Positions 3,556 to 63,616 of a DNA stretch of 64,000 bases are shown one piece after another. The stretch lies in NCBI RefSeq assembly GCF_011320225.1, contig NZ_JAAOEN010000001.1, positions 663,652-727,651 of the forward strand, written 5' to 3'. Below the pieces are notes generated by a model. It did not search any database, was not told the DNA's origin, and saw nothing but the letters and a program-made list of their open reading frames with translations. Made by a program: the position numbers and the translations under genes. Source of the DNA: Phytoactinopolyspora limicola. GTDB taxonomy: Bacteria > Actinomycetota > Actinomycetes > Jiangellales > Jiangellaceae. Position 1 is the stretch's first letter, and every line of letters starts with the position of its first letter.

Positions 3556-4143
3556 GTGCCTAAGATCATCGACCATGACCAGCGCCGGAGTGACATCGTC
3601 GACGTCACCTGGGAGCTGATCACCAAGGGCGGCATCGAAGCGGCCACCATGCGCGAGATCGCCAGTGCGGCCGGCTTCGCCAACGGCGCGCTGAAGCACT
3701 ACTTCCCCAGCAAGGACGACATCATCCAGGCTACGTACGAGCGGGCGCTGGAGTTGATGAAGAGCTACGTGCAGCTGGGTGAGTTGCGCGGGCTGGCGGC
3801 GCTGCGTGCGATGTGCTTGGCGGCGATGCCGATCGACGAGGAACGGATCACCGCCGGCCGGGTTTTGCTCACGTTCTGGCACGCGTCGCTGTCCAACCCG
3901 AAACTGTACGAGAAGTATTTGGAGCACGTTCGAGAGTGGCGTGCCCAGCTACACCAGCTGATCGCCGAGGGGCGCGAAGACGGCGACATCGTCACGGCGA
4001 TCCCCGACGAGCAACTCGTCGACGAGATGGTCTTGCTCAACGCCGGGGCCAACGTCATGAGTTTGGTTGGACCCCAGTTCTCCACCGTCGAGTTGCAGCG
4101 GCGGCACATCGAGTCGTTTATGGACCGCCTCACCACCCCATGA
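3556..4143 (+). CDS. TetR/AcrR-family transcriptional regulator
   Basis: This is a 195-residue one-component regulator. The N-terminal helix-turn-helix is clear (TMREIASAAGFANGALKHYF at about residues 30-49, then PSKDDIIQATYERAL). The C-terminal two thirds are the helical ligand and dimer domain, with no family-wide motif. The GTG start follows CAGGGAGCCCAG. A dyad in its own promoter at 3494-3509 suggests autoregulation, and related sites occur upstream of the ABC importer, the SDR and the alcohol dehydrogenase, so it may control the whole catabolic island. That wider role is inference. Its stop codon is the TGA inside the 60-bp palindrome at 4136-4195. Confidence 0.9.
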   Translation: MPKIIDHDQRRSDIVDVTWELITKGGIEAATMREIASAAGFANGALKHYFPSKDDIIQATYERALELMKSYVQLGELRGLAALRAMCLAAMPIDEERITAGRVLLTFWHASLSNPKLYEKYLEHVREWRAQLHQLIAEGREDGDIVTAIPDEQLVDEMVLLNAGANVMSLVGPQFSTVELQRRHIESFMDRLTTP

Positions 4144-4195
4144 TCATGAACACTTTGCCGTGCCATGGCACGGCAAAGTGTTCATGATCATGGGG
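4136..4195. repeat. 60-bp perfect palindrome between convergent genes
   Basis: Bases 4136-4165 are the exact reverse complement of 4166-4195. The arm runs CCCC-ATGATCATGAACAC-TTTGCCGTGCCA and the centre is CCATGG. The TGA of the TetR gene (4141-4143) lies in its left TGATCA. The convergent esterase ends 13 bp beyond it. It could act as a bidirectional terminator, but it has no T-tract. It belongs to the palindrome family at 12683, 30459, 36540 and 63549. Confidence 0.95.
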
Positions 4196-11939: not shown

Positions 11940-12686
11940 ATGACGCAGTCCACCCTGGAGCTAGCGGTACGCCGCTTCACCCCGGACGGACCCGTGAGCG
12001 GCCCACCAGTGCTGCTCGTCCACGGTTTCACCTCCGACGGCGAAAGCGACTGGCTGGGTAGCGGCTGGCCGGCAGCGTTGACGGCGGCCGGCCGGGTGGT
12101 TCTCGTTCCTGACCTGCCGGGACACGGGACGAGTCCGGTCCCGCGTGGCGTGGCCGATGCCCTGCCGAGTGCCATGGTGGCTGCACTACTGGACGTGGTG
12201 GCGAGCGAATCTTCCGGGCCGGTAAACGTGGTCGCCTACTCGCTGGGTGCTCGGCTGGCGTGGGAACTTCCGAAGGCGTCGGTGACGGTATCGCATCTCG
12301 TCCTCGGCGGGATCAGCCCGCGTGAGCCGTTCGGTGCGCTGGACACGGAGGTCCTGCTGGCCGTCGCTGAGCAGGGGGCCGACCCGGGTGATCCGTTGAC
12401 GGGGATGGTGGCGTCGATGATCACTGCACCTGGCCGGAACACCCGAGCGCTGGTGACGTGTGTGGAGGGCCTGAAGGCCGAGCCGTTCTCACCGTCCCCC
12501 TCGGATATCGACGTGCCGGCGCTGTTCGTGGCCGGTGACGCCGATCCGGTCGCGGCCGGGATCGAGGAGCTGGTGGAGCTGGTGGACGGCGCCCAGTTGT
12601 GGAAGGTTCCCGGCGATCACCTCAGCACACTGCACGGCCCGGACTTCCAGCGCGTCGCGGTCGATTTCCTCACCACCCCTCGGTGA
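11940..12686 (+). CDS. Alpha/beta hydrolase fold protein
   Basis: This 248-residue soluble hydrolase has the classical catalytic elements: an oxyanion turn in LLVHGFTSDGESDW, the nucleophile elbow AYSLGA, an acidic residue in VAGDADPVAAG, and His in VPGDHLSTLHG. It resembles small esterase or C-C hydrolase family members, without a feature fixing the substrate. The gene lies 6 bp after the permease gene, so it probably processes the imported compound. Its TGA stop (12684-12686) is part of the left TGATC of the 54-bp palindrome that ends the operon. Confidence 0.83.
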   Translation: MTQSTLELAVRRFTPDGPVSGPPVLLVHGFTSDGESDWLGSGWPAALTAAGRVVLVPDLPGHGTSPVPRGVADALPSAMVAALLDVVASESSGPVNVVAYSLGARLAWELPKASVTVSHLVLGGISPREPFGALDTEVLLAVAEQGADPGDPLTGMVASMITAPGRNTRALVTCVEGLKAEPFSPSPSDIDVPALFVAGDADPVAAGIEELVELVDGAQLWKVPGDHLSTLHGPDFQRVAVDFLTTPR

Positions 12687-12736
12687 TCGTCAGCGGTTCC
12701 GTGTCGCTATAGCGACACGGAACCGCTGACGATCAC
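12683..12736. repeat. 54-bp perfect palindrome overlapping a stop codon
   Basis: Bases 12683-12709 are the exact reverse complement of 12710-12736. The arm starts GTGATCGTC and ends GTCGCTA, so the centre is CGCTATAGCG. It lies between convergent genes and contains the hydrolase stop TGA. The palindrome at 30459-30512 has the same length, ends and centre but an unrelated middle of the arm. Confidence 0.95.
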
Positions 12737-16770: not shown

Positions 16771-16789
16771 GGTGTTGCCCTGGCCCCGT

Positions 16790-16857
16790 ACTGCGCTACC
16801 GCCAGATGGCGTTAAGGCCCGAATCCGGCTCTTAACGCCATCTGGCGGTAGCGCAGT
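16790..16857. repeat. Palindrome with 27-bp perfect stem and 14-base loop
   Basis: Bases 16790-16816 are the exact reverse complement of 16831-16857; the loop is GCCCGAATCCGGCT. The arm begins ACTGCGCTACCGCC and ends GGCGTTAAG. Unlike its neighbours it lacks TGATC. A strong hairpin would form in either RNA strand. Confidence 0.92.
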
Positions 16858-17071
16858 GCGCGATAGCGCGTTGGGACCTGGCACCCATCCGGCCCGACGT
16901 CGCCACAGTGCGCCTTTCACCATCGTCGGCACCCCTGAACCTGTGATGAGGCAACTCGCCTGCTCCAGAGGAGTGAAGACGGGCCGACGCGGTATATGTC
17001 GCGCAGCCCGACGCCTACCTTCGACTGACGGCAGCCCCAGCCAGCGTCACACTCACAGATCGTTTGTGGAA

Positions 17072-22099: not shown

Positions 22100-22162
22100 C
22101 CGCCGTGATCGTGTCGGCGATCCGGTCGCGAGGCGACGCGAATCCCGACACGATCACGGCGG
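22100..22162. repeat. Palindrome with 18-bp stem carrying TGATC
   Basis: CCGCCGTGATCGTGTCGG (22100-22117) pairs exactly with 22145-22162 across 27 bases that are themselves weakly self-complementary. It lies between the convergent esterase and polysaccharide monooxygenase genes and may end both transcripts. Confidence 0.9.
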
Positions 22163-24754: not shown

Positions 24755-27100
24755 TCAGTCCAGCACCTTTTGTGTCAGTTCATCGACCGCGACGATGATC
24801 TCCGGGTTCTCGTCGGCCTTCGGCCCAGGTGTGTAGGTGACTCGGCGCAGGCCGCGCCGGTAGCGGAACACTCCACGGCGCGCGTGCAGATCCCAATCCA
24901 CCGGCCCGCCATGATCGAAGCCCACACTGATGCCGGTGAACGGAGCCATCCCCAGCAGCTGGGGGATATTGTCCAGCTGGATCAGGCGGTCGGACCCGAT
25001 GTCCACCTCGACCGCACATCGCATGGCGGCAAGCGCGGTGAACCGGACGGTCACCACCAGAGGGGTGGCGCTCGCGGCGGCCGGAAGTGGACCACTTCCA
25101 CGCACCGGCCGACCGTAGGCGTTGTATGTGAGCCGAAGCTCACCGTCCTCGACGTACAGGACGTATCCACCACCCTGATCGCCGTGCGCGACGATGACCC
25201 CCTCATCGCCCATCTGATAGTCGAGGTCCGCCTCGATGACGAAGGAGCGCAGCAACGTCAGCCGGCTCGAACGGAACCGCTCCAGCACTGGGGTTCCCGG
25301 GTAGATGGTGACCGGTTCGGCCAGCGGCAGCTCGGTGGATGGGCGGGTGAAGAACATCCGGCCGGTGTCATCCAATGGAAAGACGGTGTTTGCCCACGCC
25401 GCCTCCCGCCACTGTGCGGCCAGTCCGGCCACCTTGTCCGGGTGGACGGCGGCAAGATCGTTGGTTTCAGCCGGGTCGGTGGTGATGTCGTAGAGCTGCC
25501 AGCCGTCCTCGGTGAACGGGGTCCCGGGCAAATGTGGCGCGATGATCTTGAAGCCGTCGGCGAAGTATCCGCGTTGGCCACCACACTCGACGTATTGGGT
25601 GTGATGCCGGGTCGGAAGCTCGGCGTCGCGCAAGAGGTGGTCGAAGCCGACACCATCCACGTCTTGAGTAGGTGTTCCGTGCCGCTCGGTGAGCCGCGGC
25701 ACACCGGCCAGACCGAGCAGCGTGGGGGCGACGTCGGTGATGTAGGCGTATTGATGCCGCACCCCGGAGTCATCGTCGGACCTAGGTAGCCCGTCCGGCC
25801 AGGACAGCATGAACGGCACGTGGATGCCGCCGGCGTATGCGTGGCCCTTGTAGTAGCGGAAAGGTGTGTTGGACACATGAGCCCAACCCCGCGGGTAGTG
25901 CCCGTGGACCTGGGGTCCACCCAGGAGTTCCAGCTCACGTGGCACGTCGGTGACCCAGTCGCCGGGTAGCCCTGCGAGGTGTACGAACTGGCTGAAGTAG
26001 CTGCGGGTTCCGGCTAGGCCGCCCTCGCCGGTAGCACCGTTGTCGCTGGCGAAGACGATGATGGTGTTTTCGTACTCACCGAGTTCGCGGAGCGTCGTCA
26101 CCAGGCGTCCAACACTCTGGTCTACCGCGTCCACGGCCGCGGCATAGACCTCCATGTGCCGGGCGAACAACTCCTGGCGGTCCGGGGGGAGTTCGTCCCA
26201 TGCCGGCACACCCATCGTTTCGTCAGGGCCAGACGGCGACATCCGGGTCGACTCGGGAAACAGGCCGGCCTGGATCTGCTGGCGGAACCGTTGGCTGCGG
26301 ATGTGGTCCCAGCCGGCGTTGTACACCCCTCGGTATTTCTCGATGTCGTCCGGCTTGGCCTGGACCGGGCCGTGAACAGCTTGGTGAGCGAAGTAGAGGA
26401 AGAACGGCCGGCTGGCATCGCTGGCGCGTAGGCCGTGAATCATACCGATCGCCTCATCGGTGAGGGCGTCGGTCAGGTAGAAGTCGTCCGGGTACTCCTG
26501 CACCGGGTCGGGGCTGTTGTCGCGGATCAGGCGGTGCGGGTGGAACAACGACGTAAAGCCGTCCAGCGAACCGTAGTAGCGGTCGAAACCGCGCTGCAGC
26601 GGCCAGGATCGTTTGTCAGCGCCGTCGTGCATCTGCGATTCCTTCGTCAGATGCCACTTGCCGACCATGAACGTGGCGTAGCCGCCGGCTTGGAACGACT
26701 CGGCCAACGTTGGTACGTCGTCGGCGAGCTCGAACCGGTAGCCAGGGTATCCAGGGTCCATGTGCACGACGGAGGCGTATCCGGCGCGGTGCGGGTTGAG
26801 CCCGGTGAGCAGGGCGGCACGAGACGGAGTGCACAGCGGTGTCGCGTGGAAGTTCGTGAGCCGGTAGCCGTCGTCGGCCAGGCCAGCGAGGTGAGGTGTC
26901 GCTATTTCCGAACCGAATGGGCCGATGTCGCTGAAGCCAAGATCGTCGACGAGTATCACCACGACGTTGGGCGCCCCGTCACGCGCCCGCTTCGGTCCGG
27001 GCCACCACGGCGTCGACTCGGAGACACACTCGGCGACGCTGCCCCCGAATCCGTCGTAGCCCCGGGTGGGGTACGACGTACGGGCCGGGTTCTGGGCCAT
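24755..27100 (-). CDS. Arylsulfatase-type sulfatase
   Basis: This 781-residue type I sulfatase hydrolyses a sulfate ester. The metal-binding DD is in VVILVDDLGFSDIGPFG (residues 52-53). The modification motif C-T-P-S-R (Cys90) must be converted to formylglycine by a separate enzyme. Further active-site pieces are MVGKWHLTKE and FASDNGATGEGG. The C-terminal 200 residues form the extra domain seen in long arylsulfatases. No signal peptide is visible, so the enzyme may be cytoplasmic or exported by an unrecognised route. ATG 27100 follows GAGGAG with 7-base spacing. It lies 77 bp after the GMC oxidoreductase gene, so they may share a transcript. Confidence 0.93.
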   Translation of the reverse strand: MAQNPARTSYPTRGYDGFGGSVAECVSESTPWWPGPKRARDGAPNVVVILVDDLGFSDIGPFGSEIATPHLAGLADDGYRLTNFHATPLCTPSRAALLTGLNPHRAGYASVVHMDPGYPGYRFELADDVPTLAESFQAGGYATFMVGKWHLTKESQMHDGADKRSWPLQRGFDRYYGSLDGFTSLFHPHRLIRDNSPDPVQEYPDDFYLTDALTDEAIGMIHGLRASDASRPFFLYFAHQAVHGPVQAKPDDIEKYRGVYNAGWDHIRSQRFRQQIQAGLFPESTRMSPSGPDETMGVPAWDELPPDRQELFARHMEVYAAAVDAVDQSVGRLVTTLRELGEYENTIIVFASDNGATGEGGLAGTRSYFSQFVHLAGLPGDWVTDVPRELELLGGPQVHGHYPRGWAHVSNTPFRYYKGHAYAGGIHVPFMLSWPDGLPRSDDDSGVRHQYAYITDVAPTLLGLAGVPRLTERHGTPTQDVDGVGFDHLLRDAELPTRHHTQYVECGGQRGYFADGFKIIAPHLPGTPFTEDGWQLYDITTDPAETNDLAAVHPDKVAGLAAQWREAAWANTVFPLDDTGRMFFTRPSTELPLAEPVTIYPGTPVLERFRSSRLTLLRSFVIEADLDYQMGDEGVIVAHGDQGGGYVLYVEDGELRLTYNAYGRPVRGSGPLPAAASATPLVVTVRFTALAAMRCAVEVDIGSDRLIQLDNIPQLLGMAPFTGISVGFDHGGPVDWDLHARRGVFRYRRGLRRVTYTPGPKADENPEIIVAVDELTQKVLD

Positions 27101-30425: not shown

Positions 30426-30546
30426 GTGATCGTCGCCAGTTTTCTGCCCTCATCCCCAGTGATCGTCGCCAGGATTCGGTCGCTATAGCGACCGAATCCT
30501 GGCGACGATCACCGATGGGTGGCGACACGATCTCGGCGACGATCAC
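30426..30546. repeat. 54-bp perfect palindrome with extra arm copies on both sides
   Basis: Bases 30459-30485 are the exact reverse complement of 30486-30512. The arm starts GTGATCGTC and ends GTCGCTA, with centre CGCTATAGCG. A further left-arm copy, GTGATCGTCGCC (30426-30437), and its complement (30535-30546) lie outside, giving a nested inverted arrangement. It has the same length, ends and centre as the palindrome at 12683-12736. Confidence 0.93.
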
Positions 30547-35456: not shown

Positions 35457-36533
35457 ATGACAGACGCGACATCCATTAGGCCCACGGTCCCGCCGCCGGA
35501 CGTCATCCGGTGTGCCTACGTGGAGTTCATCGTCAGCGACCTGGCCGCCAGCCGCGAGTTCTATGTGGACGTGCTCGGCCTCGTCGTGACCCACGAAGAC
35601 GCCGACGCGTTGTACCTGCGGGCGTTCGAGGAGTATCTGCACCATTCGATCGTCCTGCGCAAGGGACCGGTGCCGGCGCTGAGTGTGCTGGCCTACCGGG
35701 TACGTAGTGCCGCTGAGCTCGACGTCGCCGAGGAGTACTACCGCCAGTTGGGCGTCAGGGTGGAACGTCGCGCGGCAGGGGCCATCCGGGGCATCGGCGA
35801 GGCGGTGCGGATCGAGGATCCGCTGGGGTTCCCGATCGAGTTCTTCTACGACGCCGAACACCGGGAGCGTTTCACCCAGCGTTACGACGCACACGGCGCC
35901 GGTGCTATCGCGCGGCTGGACCACTTCAACGTCAACACACCGGATGTCCCGGCGGCTAGGGCGTATTACGAGGGTCTCGGGTTCCGGGTGTCGGAGGACA
36001 TCAAGGACGACGAGGGGACGGTTTATGCCGCGTGGCTGTTCCGTAAGCCGACCGTGCACGACATCGCGCTGACCGGCGGTGATGGGCCGCGGCTGCACCA
36101 TGTCGCGTTCGCGACCCACGAGCGTCACCAGATTCTGCACATCTGCGATCACCTCGGTGCGCTGCGGCGATCGGACATGATCGAGCGGGGTCCGGGCCGG
36201 CACGGGGTGTCCAACGCCTTCTATCTGTATCTGCGCGACCCGGACGGGCACCGAATCGAGATCTACAGCCATGACTATTACACCGGGGATCCGGACAACC
36301 CGGTGATCTCCTGGGACGTCCATGACAACCAGCGTCGAGATTGGTGGGGCAACCCCGTCGTGCCGAGCTGGTACACCGACGCGTCGCTGGTGCTCGACTT
36401 GGATGGCAACGTCAAGGAGACCGTGGAGCGGACCGACTCGAAGGAGATGGACGTCACTATCGGCGCCGACGGGTTCTCCTACACCCGCAAGAACGACACC
36501 GAGCAGGGGTTCAAGCTCGGCACCCAGGTCTGA
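35457..36533 (+). CDS. hpaD: 3,4-dihydroxyphenylacetate 2,3-dioxygenase (extradiol, type I)
   Basis: This 358-residue vicinal-oxygen-chelate dioxygenase opens the ring of homoprotocatechuate next to the hydroxyls. The metal triad is intact: His156 (RLDHFNV), His215 (LHHVAF) and Glu268 (RIEIYSHDYY). These are one off the numbers of the Brevibacterium fuscum enzyme (155, 214, 267), so the proteins align almost without gaps. The second-sphere segment GRHGVSNAFYLYLRDPDGH is conserved. Whether it uses Fe or Mn cannot be told. It is the last gene of the operon, which ends in a 96-bp palindrome 7 bp after the stop. Confidence 0.95.
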   Translation: MTDATSIRPTVPPPDVIRCAYVEFIVSDLAASREFYVDVLGLVVTHEDADALYLRAFEEYLHHSIVLRKGPVPALSVLAYRVRSAAELDVAEEYYRQLGVRVERRAAGAIRGIGEAVRIEDPLGFPIEFFYDAEHRERFTQRYDAHGAGAIARLDHFNVNTPDVPAARAYYEGLGFRVSEDIKDDEGTVYAAWLFRKPTVHDIALTGGDGPRLHHVAFATHERHQILHICDHLGALRRSDMIERGPGRHGVSNAFYLYLRDPDGHRIEIYSHDYYTGDPDNPVISWDVHDNQRRDWWGNPVVPSWYTDASLVLDLDGNVKETVERTDSKEMDVTIGADGFSYTRKNDTEQGFKLGTQV

Positions 36534-36539
36534 CCCGCC

Positions 36540-36635
36540 CCTCCCTGTCTCCCTCCCTCCCGTGATCATTGGCTTTTAGCTACCGGATCCGGTAGCTAAA
36601 AGCCAATGATCACGGGAGGGAGGGAGACAGGGAGG
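36540..36635. repeat. 96-bp perfect palindrome filling a convergent gap
   Basis: Bases 36540-36587 are the exact reverse complement of 36588-36635. From outside inward the arm has CCTCCCTGTCTCCCTCCCTC, then CCGTGATCATTGGC, then TTTTAGCTACCGGA; the centre is CCGGATCCGG. It occupies nearly all of the 105-bp gap between hpaD (+) and the GNAT gene (-), so it could end both transcripts. Its inner part matches the palindrome at 63549-63616 except for AG versus GA, changed symmetrically on both arms. Confidence 0.97.
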
Positions 36636-36638
36636 CGA

Positions 36639-37232
36639 TCATGGGAGGAAGGTTGGGCGGGCCATGGTGAGGCCCGACGGATTCTCGTGCAGCACGGTGA
36701 AGCCGAGGTGGCGGTAGAAGCCGATCGCGTTGGTGTTGGTCGCGCCCACACCGAGGTGCACCCCGGTGGCCCCGACGTCGTGCAGCGCGGCCAGCAGACG
36801 GCGCATGAGGATGCGGCCGAAGCCGCGGCCCTGGGTCCGTGGGAGCAGGTCGATGTGCAAGTGTGCCGGGTACTCGGCGACGACGTCGTCCCGCGCCACG
36901 GGTGGCCGGTGGATGAGCCGGGCGAACCGCGCATCGATGGTGTCGTCCGGGAACGAACCCACGGGATACCGCTCGCGTAGCCGCGGCCACCAGCGTGCCT
37001 CGCAGAGCTTCTCGAAACCGCGGGTGTCTCGCGCCCCCAGCACATAGCCGGCGACACCGTCGTCGTCCTCGACCACAAAGGCCAGGTCGGGCTCGAACGC
37101 CAGATATGGCCCGACGTAGATCTCCCCGAGGATGCGCGGATCGGTGAAGGCTGCGCCACCACCCGGGCCGGTCTTCAGGCAGATCTCGTACAGCGTGTCG
37201 TCGTCCCCGCTGCGATAGGGCCGTACCTCCAT
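36639..37232 (-). CDS. GNAT-family N-acetyltransferase
   Basis: This 197-residue acetyltransferase has the acetyl-CoA pyrophosphate loop in LLPRTQGRGFGRILM and the C-terminal strand-helix GATNTNAIGFYRHLGF. The N-terminus (VRPYRSGDDDTLYEICLKT) is typical of a bacterial subgroup related to the acetyltransferase-like domain of O-GlcNAcase. The acetyl acceptor is unknown. It stands alone; its stop TGA is in ATGATCG, 3 bp beyond the 96-bp palindrome. It is on the opposite strand from the aromatic operon and is unlikely to belong to it. Confidence 0.87.
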   Translation of the reverse strand: MEVRPYRSGDDDTLYEICLKTGPGGGAAFTDPRILGEIYVGPYLAFEPDLAFVVEDDDGVAGYVLGARDTRGFEKLCEARWWPRLRERYPVGSFPDDTIDARFARLIHRPPVARDDVVAEYPAHLHIDLLPRTQGRGFGRILMRRLLAALHDVGATGVHLGVGATNTNAIGFYRHLGFTVLHENPSGLTMARPTFLP

Positions 37233-49826: not shown

Positions 49827-50849
49827 CTAGCCGATGACGCGAGCCTGGACCTCCGCGACCGGAACAGCGAACTGCGCTTCTGTGGTTTGCGGGTCCAGGG
49901 GTCCTTGCGGCTCACCGTTGTAGGACCAGTCGACGGACCAGAAGCTACGGGCGCTCACCTGGGTCACCTGGCCGGGTTGGTTCGCACTGGACCGCTGGAA
50001 GGTCAAGTTGCAGTCCGAAGACGCGCCGGGAGCCCAGGCGATACCGAAGCCATCACAGGTGACGGATTCGGCGGTGGCCGCTGAGAAGCCCATCTCACTC
50101 AACGTTGCCTCGACTGTGGCACGGTGTCCGGCGGCTTCGGCATGCACGTCGAGTTCGACCGGGCCGTCATCGAGCCAGAACCAGGTAGGTATGTTCACCA
50201 GCGTGGCGCCGTCACCCTGCCGTTGTGGGTTCCAAGAGACGTCCGGGTCCGGCAATCGCATCGCGTCGTGCGCGATCTCCAGCAGAAACTCCGGCGGAAT
50301 GTCTGGAACCGGCTCCGGGTCACCCGCTTCTACGTAGACCGTCGGTGTGTTCTCCCACCACTCGTCTAGGTACTCGGCGTACTCGTCGATTGTGCCGTTG
50401 AAGTTCTGCTGGCTACAGCGCTTGTGCCACCAGCGGCCGTCTTCGTCATCCTTGTGCTCTTCGAGGTCTTCGAGCGTCAGTTCATTGGTTCCAAAGGGAT
50501 TCTGGTGCCAGTCGCGCTTCTCCCACGCTTCCTTTCCGCTCCACAACTCGAACCGATAACACGGTGGTCGGACCCACGTGTTGTTGCCAGGGATCTCGTA
50601 GCCGTCTTCACCCGCTGTGATGCCGGTACCCCACACGCTCACCCGGAGGTACCCGTCCTTGGACGATCCTTCGGCGTTGTTGTCACAGGTCTCAAAGGTG
50701 CACCGAGGCTTCAGCTCTTCCTGCGCATGTGCCGCCGGTGTGATGGCCAAGAGCGAGCTGGAGGTCAGGACGATCGATAGCGCGCCAGCAACCAGAACCT
50801 TAGGCGGGCTCACTCGGCTGAACGCTGGCCCATGTGCGAGTTTGGGCAT
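49827..50849 (-). CDS. Secreted protein of unknown function
   Basis: This 340-residue protein has a long signal peptide (VLVAGALSIVLTSSSLLAIT) with a likely cut after AHA (about residue 42). The mature part starts with four Cys within a short span (RCTFETCDNN) and has more Cys later, suggesting disulfides. Aromatic, acidic segments (GRWWHKRCSQQNFNGTIDEY) and a C-terminal beta-rich part (WSVDWSYNGEPQGP) follow. It belongs to no family I recognise. GAGAGGGTTGAGTT precedes the ATG. The following lipoprotein gene lies 58 bp downstream, so the pair may be an operon. Confidence 0.75.
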   Translation of the reverse strand: MPKLAHGPAFSRVSPPKVLVAGALSIVLTSSSLLAITPAAHAQEELKPRCTFETCDNNAEGSSKDGYLRVSVWGTGITAGEDGYEIPGNNTWVRPPCYRFELWSGKEAWEKRDWHQNPFGTNELTLEDLEEHKDDEDGRWWHKRCSQQNFNGTIDEYAEYLDEWWENTPTVYVEAGDPEPVPDIPPEFLLEIAHDAMRLPDPDVSWNPQRQGDGATLVNIPTWFWLDDGPVELDVHAEAAGHRATVEATLSEMGFSAATAESVTCDGFGIAWAPGASSDCNLTFQRSSANQPGQVTQVSARSFWSVDWSYNGEPQGPLDPQTTEAQFAVPVAEVQARVIG

Positions 50850-60816: not shown

Positions 60817-61548
60817 ATGGGAGCCCGAATTCTCGTGGCCGAGGACGACCACAAACAGGCCGATCTCGTGCGCCGCTACCTCGAGCGGGAGGGCCATGCG
60901 GTGATCGTCGCGCCCGACGGCAGAGTGGCCCTCGACGAGGCGCGTCGTCGCTCACCGGACCTCGTGGTGCTCGACGTGATGATGCCGCGCGTCGACGGGT
61001 TGGATGTGTGCCGGATCTTGCGTGCTGAGGCAGACGTCCCAATCATCATGCTGACCGCCCGCACCACCGAGGACGATCTGTTGCTCGGATTGGATCTGGG
61101 CGCGGATGACTACATCACCAAGCCCTACAGCCCACGCGAGCTGGTGGCTCGGGTCCGCACCGTGCTGCGGCGTTCCGCGGCCTGGTCCCATCGTGACGAG
61201 CAAGTGGCCCGCATCGGTGAGCTGGTGGTCGACAGCGGCCGGCACGAGGTGCTGATGGCTGGCCGACCGGTCGACGTGACACCGGCCGAGTTCAAGATCC
61301 TGGAATGCCTGATCACCGCACCGGGCCGGGCCTTCAGCCGCCAGCATCTCCTGGAACAAGCCTTCGGTTTTGACCACTACGTTCTGGACCGGACTGTTGA
61401 CGTCCACGTGATGAACCTGCGCCGGAAGATCGAACCCGATCCGTCGGCTCCGCTGTATCTGCTGACCGTGTACGGAGTGGGGTACAAGATGGCCGAACGG
61501 GCGCCGGGTGACCGATTGGTTGGCGATAGCTCGTCGGAGGTTGTGTGA
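60817..61548 (+). CDS. OmpR-family response regulator
   Basis: This 243-residue regulator has a receiver domain with acidic pair Asp10-Asp11, phosphorylation site Asp53 (VVLDVMMP), Thr80 and Lys102 (YITKPYSP), followed by a winged-helix DNA-binding domain (TPAEFKILECLITAPGRAFS, then VDVHVMNLRRKIEPDP). Its stop overlaps the kinase start (TGATG). It is divergent from the lipoprotein-efflux operon, whose two promoters carry 11-bp-spaced GTGAAG repeats suited to this family. It probably switches on that operon when the kinase senses envelope damage or a toxic peptide. Confidence 0.95.
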   Translation: MGARILVAEDDHKQADLVRRYLEREGHAVIVAPDGRVALDEARRRSPDLVVLDVMMPRVDGLDVCRILRAEADVPIIMLTARTTEDDLLLGLDLGADDYITKPYSPRELVARVRTVLRRSAAWSHRDEQVARIGELVVDSGRHEVLMAGRPVDVTPAEFKILECLITAPGRAFSRQHLLEQAFGFDHYVLDRTVDVHVMNLRRKIEPDPSAPLYLLTVYGVGYKMAERAPGDRLVGDSSSEVV

Positions 61549-63560
61549 TGCGCATTAGCCTCCCCGTCCGTCTGCTGGGCCTGTCGTTGGCGGTAGCGGC
61601 CTGCGCGATCACCGCCACGGCCTGGCTGACCACCCGCGACACTGGAGAGAGGTTCCGAGGAGAGTTCGAGCGCACACTCGAGGCCGACACCTTCATCTAC
61701 CAGGATTTAGTCAAATACGCCGCTTCCAACGACTCGTGGGACGACGTCGGCTATCTGCTGCGTGATCTTGCCGGCCTTACGGGGCGGAGGGTCGCGTTAA
61801 CCGATCTCGATGGTCAGATCCTGGCCGATTCGGCGGGCGATGGTGGTGGGGTGCCGCCTCTGCCATCGAATCCGACCGCCGAGATCGATGTGCTCCGCAA
61901 CAACGTCGACGTGGCGTTCTCCGGCGGGATGCCCTACCTATCGGATATATCGGTCTTCGACATGGCTGACGCTGAAGATGTCGAGGTAAATTACGACAGG
62001 GTTGACCCCGTCGATCCAGCCGAGGCCGCGGCATTGGACGAGAGGATTAGCTTCTCCGTCGAGACAGCCTCGGGCACAGGGTTCGGGGGTATCTCGCCCT
62101 TGTGGCGGATGACCGACGCCGAACACGAAGCCCGAGAGGCGGTCCTGGTCGAGGTGCAGAGCTGTTTGCAGGACTCGCTGGGGGTGACCGGTCAGCTCGT
62201 CGTCGACCAGTTCGGTGAGATTTTGCTGCTCGATGGCTCGTTCGAAGTGGCCGCGGGCACGGCCATCGGCTCAACCGACAGCTTCGCGTTTGACGAAACC
62301 GGTGTCGAATTGTCCGGGAGCGCCGCCGGCGACGAGTGTTTCGGGGACGCACTCTCCACCCCTAGTCAGGCCGCTCGGGATCTCGCCGAACGGCAAGCCG
62401 CCCTCATGAGCTGGTGCCTCGACGACGTCGACGTCCCGCACCGCGTGGTGGAAGGAAGCTGGGGGCTGTCGCAGGTGGTCCCGGCCGCCTCACCGCCGGA
62501 GAGCCCACGGCCCGACGACGAGTTCGGCACGTGGATTTCGTGCGACAGCACGGCTTGGGAGAACGCGCTCGAAGGCTACGTAGCTGGCCCGGCCCTGCTC
62601 TACACCGGCAGCACCGAACGGTTCGATCCGTTCTTCGGCGATGGCTGGTGGCGCACGATGTTGGCGGGATTGGCGGTGCTCGCCGCCGCCACCGGCGTGA
62701 CCGTACTGGCCGGCCGCCGGCTCACCCGGCCCATCCACGCCCTGACCGGGGCCGCGCGTCGTATGGGATCCGGCGACCACGGCGCACGGGTCCGGGTGTC
62801 CGGCCGAGGCGAGCTGGCCGAACTGGGGACGGCGTTCAACTCGATGGCCGAGTCCGTCCAGACGAACGAGGAACGACGTAAGGCGATGGTGAGCGACGTC
62901 GCTCACGAACTACGCACCCCGTTGTCCAACGTCCGTGGATACCTGGAAGCCGCCGAGGACGGCGTCGTACCACTGGATCCGGCGTTGGTGTCGTCTCTGT
63001 TGGAGGAGTCCCACCTTCTGCAACGCTTGATCGACGACCTTCAGGATCTAGCGCTGGCGGATGCCGGGAAACTGCGGGTTCACCCCGAGGACGTCGACAT
63101 CGAGCAACTCGCCCGTCAGGTGGTTGCTGCCCACGGTAAAGCCGCCGCCGACGCGGAGGTCGACGTCCGGGTGGACGCGGTACCCGTCGTCGCCACCGCC
63201 GACCCCCAACGGTTGCGGCAGGCAATGGGCAATCTCGTGGCCAACGCAGTGCGCTTCACTCCTGCCGGGGGGCACGTCGTGGTCAAAGTCCACCCCGGCG
63301 TCGCCGCGGACGCCGTGGTCATCGAGGTGACCGACGATGGGCCCGGCATTCCGCCCGGACACCTGCCTCGCCTGTTCGACCGCTTCTACCGGGTCGAGCA
63401 GTCGCGTAGCCGCCAGACGGGCGGCAGCGGGCTCGGCCTGGCCATCACTAAACACCTGGTGGAGGCACACGAGGGGACGATCGAGGTGGCTAGCACGGCC
63501 GGGGAGGGCTCCACCTTCACCATCCGCCTCCCCGCCCACACGACGCCCCCCTCCCCATGA
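61548..63560 (+). CDS. Sensor histidine kinase
   Basis: This 670-residue membrane kinase has an N-terminal helix (LLGLSLAVAACAITATAWL), an unusually large outer domain of about 340 residues with Cys residues and several aromatic blocks, and a second helix (MLAGLAVLAAATGVTVLAG). A HAMP linker (RRLTRPIHALTGAARRMGSG) and the HisKA domain with His453 (SDVAHELRTPLSN) follow. The ATPase domain has NLVANAVRFTP, DDGPGIPPGHL and GSGLGLAITKHL. It should phosphorylate the regulator encoded just upstream. The big sensor domain may contact the two lipoproteins or the ligand directly. The TGA stop is inside the palindrome at 63549. Confidence 0.94.
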   Translation: MRISLPVRLLGLSLAVAACAITATAWLTTRDTGERFRGEFERTLEADTFIYQDLVKYAASNDSWDDVGYLLRDLAGLTGRRVALTDLDGQILADSAGDGGGVPPLPSNPTAEIDVLRNNVDVAFSGGMPYLSDISVFDMADAEDVEVNYDRVDPVDPAEAAALDERISFSVETASGTGFGGISPLWRMTDAEHEAREAVLVEVQSCLQDSLGVTGQLVVDQFGEILLLDGSFEVAAGTAIGSTDSFAFDETGVELSGSAAGDECFGDALSTPSQAARDLAERQAALMSWCLDDVDVPHRVVEGSWGLSQVVPAASPPESPRPDDEFGTWISCDSTAWENALEGYVAGPALLYTGSTERFDPFFGDGWWRTMLAGLAVLAAATGVTVLAGRRLTRPIHALTGAARRMGSGDHGARVRVSGRGELAELGTAFNSMAESVQTNEERRKAMVSDVAHELRTPLSNVRGYLEAAEDGVVPLDPALVSSLLEESHLLQRLIDDLQDLALADAGKLRVHPEDVDIEQLARQVVAAHGKAAADAEVDVRVDAVPVVATADPQRLRQAMGNLVANAVRFTPAGGHVVVKVHPGVAADAVVIEVTDDGPGIPPGHLPRLFDRFYRVEQSRSRQTGGSGLGLAITKHLVEAHEGTIEVASTAGEGSTFTIRLPAHTTPPSP

Positions 63561-63616
63561 TCATTGGCTTTTGACTACCGGATCCGGTAGTCAAAAGCCA
63601 ATGATCATGGGGAGGG
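63549..63616. repeat. 68-bp perfect palindrome overlapping the kinase stop
   Basis: Bases 63549-63582 are the exact reverse complement of 63583-63616. The arm has CCTCCCCATGATCATTGGC and then TTTTGACTACCGGA; the centre is CCGGATCCGG. The kinase stop TGA (63558-63560) lies in its left TGATCA. It differs from the inner part of the palindrome at 36540 by GA for AG on one arm and TC for CT on the other, so pairing is kept. Confidence 0.97.

Follow-up and report, generated by a model that had tools for sequence, protein, structure and literature searches.

The 96-bp perfect palindrome that separates two convergent genes of Phytoactinopolyspora limicola is no singleton: it is one copy of a large dispersed family of gene-end hairpins, and near-perfect gene-end palindromes are far commoner in this genome than in the relatives sampled. 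With moderate confidence, we favour a reading in which these elements are REP-like bidirectional 3′-end or terminator hairpins that owe their perfection and extension to template switching at replication, a reading in which we infer both the termination and the template switching.

The window, by which we mean the whole stretch of 64,000 nucleotides that was analyzed, belongs to a draft assembly of P. limicola (G000; 6.59 Mb in 40 contigs). The two arms of the palindrome (36540-36587 and 36588-36635) are 100% complementary and separated by a spacer of 0 nt, and the preliminary description of 48 matching bases on each side was thus accurate; the chance expectation for loopless perfect palindromes with arms of at least 48 nt in 64 kb is ~1e-22. 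The ORF coordinates also agree with the convergent gap it described, which leaves 6 bp to the end of the hpaD-like ORF and 3 bp to the end of the GNAT ORF. The locus is made up as follows:

35457..36533, + strand: hpaD-like extradiol dioxygenase / glyoxalase-superfamily gene (PF00903, 6.9e-24)
36540..36635, no strand: 96-bp perfect palindrome, the whole element with its locus-specific outer arms (arm comparison)
36540..36562, no strand: left outer arm, 23 bp, pyrimidine-rich, locus-specific, perfect complement of the right arm (flank comparison)
36563..36612, no strand: family A core, 50 bp, TGATCATTGGCTTTT...AAAAGCCAATGATCA (genome-wide pattern count)
36613..36635, no strand: right outer arm, 23 bp (flank comparison)
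36639..37232, - strand: GNAT acetyltransferase gene (ORF and domain match)

The RNA fold of the palindrome is predicted at -102.7 kcal/mol (z -20), and the predicted folded strand has a 4-nt loop, rather than the hairpin with no loop that had been proposed.

When the window was scanned for perfect arms of at least 10 nt with a spacer of 0-8 nt, seven places were obtained, every one with a spacer of 0. The other elements of the TGATC families are:

4136..4195, no strand: family B copy (TGATCATGAACAC...), 30-bp arms, perfect, convergent gap
12683..12736, no strand: family C copy (GTGATCGT...TATA...), perfect, convergent gap
22100..22162, no strand: family C-like copy, imperfect, convergent gap
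30459..30512, no strand: family C copy, perfect, between tandem genes
63549..63616, no strand: second family A copy, perfect, with arms of 34 bp; ORF 61545-63560 ends at its TGA, and a tRNA gene lies downstream

A further repeat palindrome family (CGCTACCGCCAGATGGCGTTAAG...), not of the TGATC type, is represented at 16787-16860; it has six members in a 1.66-Mb sample of G000, and the arms measure 32-36 bp among the copies listed. Searched over the whole window at gathering scores, Rfam matched tRNA alone.

Across the genome, the core of family A, TGATCATTGGCTTTT-N-AAAAGCCAATGATCA, is present in 76 strict copies, and its reversed-pattern control in 0; the same pattern was found five times in the relative G004, with a single perfect core among the five, and gave no match in G001-G003. 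The second family, B (TGATCATGAACACT-N-AGTGTTCATGATCA), has 86 copies in G000, 87 in G005, 52 in G003, 38 in G004, 5 in G002 and 0 in G001. The general form RTGATCR...YGATCAY gave 410 matches in G000 (reversed-pattern control, 2) and 4-334 in each of 21 other Jiangellaceae genomes (control 0-1, except for 16 in G005), counts that include some matches in plain coding sequence and are lowest in G007 and G008, assemblies that are 81 and 75% complete. With a tighter pattern applied to a class sample of 148 genomes, 11 Jiangellaceae members had 28-265 matches and the others mostly 0-20, the exceptions above 20 outside the family being G050 (145), G109 (136), G086 (70), G048 (31) and G144 (27). G050, which belongs to another actinobacterial family, carries many copies of a different dispersed and partly tandem repeat, GTGATCATGCAATCCCGCCACCCC. 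A near-perfect palindrome of different sequence with a 2-nt centre (TCGTGAGTG...CACTCACGA) is common to two Amycolatopsis stretches (L016 12100-12147 and L018 12073-12116), so similar elements may occur in other actinomycetes. At 55 hpaD loci of named genomes, a scan for perfect arms of at least 12 nt with a spacer of at most 10 nt found no copy of the 96-bp element; ordinary looped hairpins follow soon after the gene in some. Among titles and the opening parts of abstracts, mostly from outside subscription journals, we found no prior description of this family.

The elements of G000 also differ from those of its relatives in their symmetry. Loopless elements with arms of at least 20 nt and at most one mismatch numbered 41 in 1.66 Mb of G000 versus none in the combined 0.78 Mb of G001-G005, a count made with runs of N removed and with a mismatch cut-off that drops a 106-bp element of G001. 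The latter, a near-palindrome without a loop at 50224-50329 of the joined sequence of the C28 stretch, has 3 mismatches and comes from a relative that carries SbcCD; imperfect copies related to it are present in G003. Among the RTGATCR elements of 48-56 bp in G000, 30/90 were perfect and 53/90 had at most two asymmetries; the corresponding figures among the matches listed were 0/18 and 3/18 in G004, and 0/80 and 3/80 in G014 (5.6 Mb in 1 contig), these being drawn from the first 25 and 91 matches of 313 and 171 genome-wide, respectively. None of the 50 family B copies listed of the 52 in G003 was perfect, and 31 of the 50 had the asymmetric interior CGTGCYATGYGAACG, whereas in G000 the CGTGNNAT-type half was found on both strands in 25/29 copies and the GTGAACG half in 0/29. 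The interior of family B is therefore asymmetric in G003 and symmetric in G000, the difference to be expected had one half served as template for the other and the symmetric form then spread. The second pair from the centre was most often unpaired (25/82 elements), and its two sides were uncoupled in family B (p=0.24) and coupled in family A. A symmetric founder could explain the coupling in family A; central symmetry is not clearly selected, and a requirement for it is unsupported in family B.

Beyond the core, the flanks are pyrimidine-rich and have their own sequence at each locus. An outer complementarity score of at least 8 was reached by 12/24 family A copies versus 20/552 cross-pairs, by 11/29 family B copies versus 37/812 and, more weakly, by 3/16 family C copies versus 19/240; in this control each left flank was paired with the right flank of another copy, so that flanks are reused and the draws are not independent. 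The mean length of the outer arms was nearly the same for exact pairing as with mismatches allowed (7.5 vs 8.3 in family A and 6.8 vs 6.9 in family B), which indicates that the outer blocks are mostly perfect and end abruptly. Such blocks are what is expected from one fold-back copying event, and single changes would hardly reach them. The extension at 36540-36635 is 23 bp long, the maximum among the cross-pairs being 14, and another copy (C1 251614-251711 of G000) has arms of 49 bp in all with 1 mismatch. The outer arm of the 96-bp copy is thus typical in kind and extreme in length: it had been described as unique, and its letters are indeed seen at no other copy, but other copies carry complementary outer arms specific to their own loci. 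Pyrimidine-rich flanks were also found at copies that lack long complementarity, unlike the flanks of the ordinary looped hairpins printed. On contig C12 of G000, two 120-bp nested palindromes (26480-26599 and 365145-365264, with 8 and 5 mismatches) hold a family C palindrome centrally within a second, GTGATCGTTAGC... palindrome, and by eye this second outer layer is present in part at ~10/16 family C copies.

The position of the elements relative to genes was analyzed in 1.66 Mb of G000 with gene calls from a simple caller rather than the annotation. The 24 family A cores comprised 12 in stop-stop, 8 in stop-start and 3 in start-start intervals and 1 at a sequence end, compared with 21% stop-stop, 51% mixed and 25% start-start for random intergenic positions. 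The median distance from the core edge to the nearest facing stop was -3 nt in family A, 8 nt in B and 52 nt in C, against 96 nt for random intergenic positions. At a distance of -3 the TGA of the core itself is the stop codon, as it was for 12/21 A copies and 9/24 B copies with a facing stop; another in-core stop (-17) was seen once in family A. Counting both sides, 22/24 gene ends that use the core TGA encode a final Pro and 13/24 encode Ser-Pro, compared with 138/1,399 and 24/1,399 of the sampled genes, a background that includes the core-TGA genes. Five core-TGA proteins could be matched to proteins in the relatives' sampled stretches, with lengths of 670 residues vs 665, 672 and 617; 129 vs 133; 235 vs 236; 420 vs 424; and 279 vs 269, 316 and 318. 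Since the nearest matches lie within 10 residues, the elements seem to sit at native gene ends, although the relatives' lengths of 617, 316 and 318 disagree. The element has a pyrimidine-rich 5′ side and reads identically from both strands; no U-tract follows the hairpin, and a purine-rich GGG stretch ends the element on both strands. At the 96-bp locus, the GNAT stop lies within CCCATGATCG (window 36636-36650), which resembles a second element end just beyond the palindrome; an end like CCCATGATCG occurs at 2/106 flanks of families A and B, with 0.56 expected.

By eye, 25 comparisons of 16 G000 gene ends with the relatives' sampled stretches (looking within 140-170 nt) revealed no relative with an element of family A, B or C; a few of these G000 gene ends bear other hairpin types. 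One convergent gap has a family C palindrome in G000 and an ordinary 16-bp hairpin with a 4-nt loop in G001, and among convergent gaps compared with stretches of G001, G004 and G005 there was one conserved pair only, with no element there. These empty gene ends fit a recent acquisition at places where a gene end is required in both directions, in keeping with the recent origin that had been put forward to account for the palindrome's persistence.

That persistence had been presented as a puzzle on the grounds that the hairpin would be a substrate for SbcCD-like nucleases. The search for sbcCD it called for found neither SbcC nor, over the family cut-off, SbcD in G000, a 99.45%-complete draft. 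Among the 22 Jiangellaceae genomes, SbcD passed the cut-off in six (G001, G002, G003, G005, G009 and G011) and was not found over it in G000, G004, 12 g3 genomes and two incomplete genomes, some of which have weak sub-cut-off matches; an SbcC N-terminal query detected the same six genomes plus one weak match in G015. In a class sample, 113/197 genomes passed the SbcD cut-off, and an absence like that in G000 is thus common. G000 does encode a 348-aa SbcD-like phosphoesterase (C1:615663-615938) that scores 43.9 bits, below the cut-off of 77.65, and its 3.3-kb locus contains no SbcC-like ORF by eye; similar sub-cut-off matches occur in G002, G003 and G004. This protein may provide another Mre11-type activity in G000. 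According to published work, the smallest hairpins that SbcCD cleaves in vitro are equivalent to palindromes of 20-36 bp (PMC4245961), yet SbcCD+ Escherichia coli tolerates an 85-bp palindrome (PMC3315005). We rejected loss of SbcCD as the sole cause: because G004 and G014, which lack SbcCD, hold few near-perfect copies, the loss is at most permissive and not sufficient for perfect palindromes. SbcCD was thus worth looking for and is not detected, but it alone is not the key, given the 85-bp palindrome tolerated in E. coli, the few near-perfect copies in G004 and G014, and the 106-bp element of G001. Persistence is a property of the repeat family in G000 and not a puzzle of one locus.

The elements can be set beside three known systems. 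REP/BIME elements (the RAYT-associated GTAG and CGTC superfamilies) are high-copy, palindromic and intergenic, most of them lying 3′ of coding regions, between convergent as well as tandem genes (PMC3733652), and the elements described here are likewise high-copy extragenic palindromes near gene 3′ ends. They differ in having a core of 50 bp, and up to 98 bp with arms, versus a REP unit of 20-40 bp, in carrying TGATCA at both ends of a symmetric core rather than a GTAG or CGTC tag at one end, and in combining near-perfect symmetry and a stop codon of their own with no Y1/RAYT match in G000 or the other Jiangellaceae genomes searched. In Streptomyces clavuligerus, structured ends that lack U and are likened to I-shaped terminators have been described, as have bidirectional ends (PMC8269248). 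The likeness to the U-tract-less, bidirectional terminators of GC-rich actinomycetes, as described there, is a strong hairpin right after stops on both strands with no U-tract, and a strong predicted hairpin does lie at converging ends here (12/24 family A stop-stop vs 21% random); the elements of G000 instead form a few dispersed families of near-identical sequence with locus-specific arm extension, for which we infer termination. Finally, template switching makes or repairs perfect stems in one event (PMC8794818). The perfect stems of such quasipalindrome-correction hairpins are the point of likeness; the differences are a dispersed repeat family and arms that reach into coding ends.

In the favoured reading, each convergent transcript would fold the element into a long 3′ hairpin that would terminate transcription and/or protect the mRNA end in both directions, as a putative U-tract-less, I-shaped, bidirectional terminator. 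During replication, the nascent strand would switch template by folding back on one arm and copying it, and copying that continued outward into the flank would, at a single stroke, write its reverse complement beyond the opposite arm, probably giving the 23 bp at 36540-36635. In a lineage without detected SbcCD, long hairpins could escape cutting by it, an effect that would be at most permissive, and copies that were already symmetric would then have spread to many gene ends. Possible signs of template switching are the locus-specific perfect blocks and the symmetrised family B halves. Against this reading, the pyrimidine tract and the Ser-Pro tails could instead mark a transposition process, and the symmetric centre of family A may be only the trace of a symmetric founder. 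Also counting against it are the few near-perfect copies in G004 and G014, the 106-bp element of G001, the weaker outer complementarity of family C and the uncoupled loop positions of family B. A bolder version, which we regard as possible but doubtful, is a self-extending palindrome in a lineage without SbcCD: fold-back synthesis would repeatedly rewrite one arm and its flank, including the last codons, and perfect copies would spread to stop codons without a REP transposase, supplying TGA, often with a Ser-Pro tail, to one or both neighbouring genes.

It seems to us rather unlikely that selection for RNA pairing in the two transcripts acted alone, with compensatory changes perfecting the stems, G-U pairs excluded since these become A-C on the other strand, and no special mutational process. 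It would account for stems that are kept while the loop position of family B is free, and for elements that face stop codons; however, gradual selection should leave partial pairing, whereas the outer arms form blocks that are mostly perfect, break off sharply and vary from locus to locus, and elements of the same class in relatives retain mismatched interiors. We give still less credence to a REP- or MITE-like mobile palindrome with stop codons or older terminator hairpins as its targets, in which case the outer arms would be the stem of an older hairpin entered at its centre. Near-identical copies that are absent from the compared gene ends of relatives, a core TGA that serves as the stop and the nested family C palindromes of C12 speak for mobility, but flanks that are pyrimidine-rich even without long complementarity set the elements apart from the ordinary looped hairpins printed, and there is no Y1/RAYT transposase match in the 22 Jiangellaceae genomes. 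Such a transposase was tried as the mover and rejected, PF01797 having matched 0/22 of these genomes, including G000, with a control that was positive in 5/14 well-known genomes.

The nearly constant length of the elements (52 or 54 bp with R/Y ends in 77/82) and the RTGATCR ends common to the families would suit a putative dyad site for a nucleoid protein, gyrase or a segregation factor, with the symmetry read in double-stranded DNA. We nevertheless consider this improbable, given that arm sequences vary between families and genomes with the symmetry kept, that the family B centre is uncoupled and that location tracks stop codons. An artefact of assembly or of the library that mirrored one flank was a natural concern, palindromes being error-prone in sequencing and the assembly a draft of 40 contigs. 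We judge it very improbable: the same core recurs with different arms at many loci on several contigs, and imperfect copies are resolved too. The concern that the single locus was an assembly or PCR-template artefact is accordingly answered by the many copies at different loci that share its behaviour.

If the self-extending palindrome were correct, the genome of P. limicola would document, naturally and at genome scale, how palindromes grow once hairpin cleavage is lost. In the E. coli studies consulted, long palindromes are artificial constructs. Dozens of natural long palindromes, together with relatives with and without SbcCD, would make it testable whether hairpin cleavage or a mutational process limits perfection in nature, and a dispersed hairpin that provides stop codons would tie gene ends to the evolution of terminators in an unusual way.
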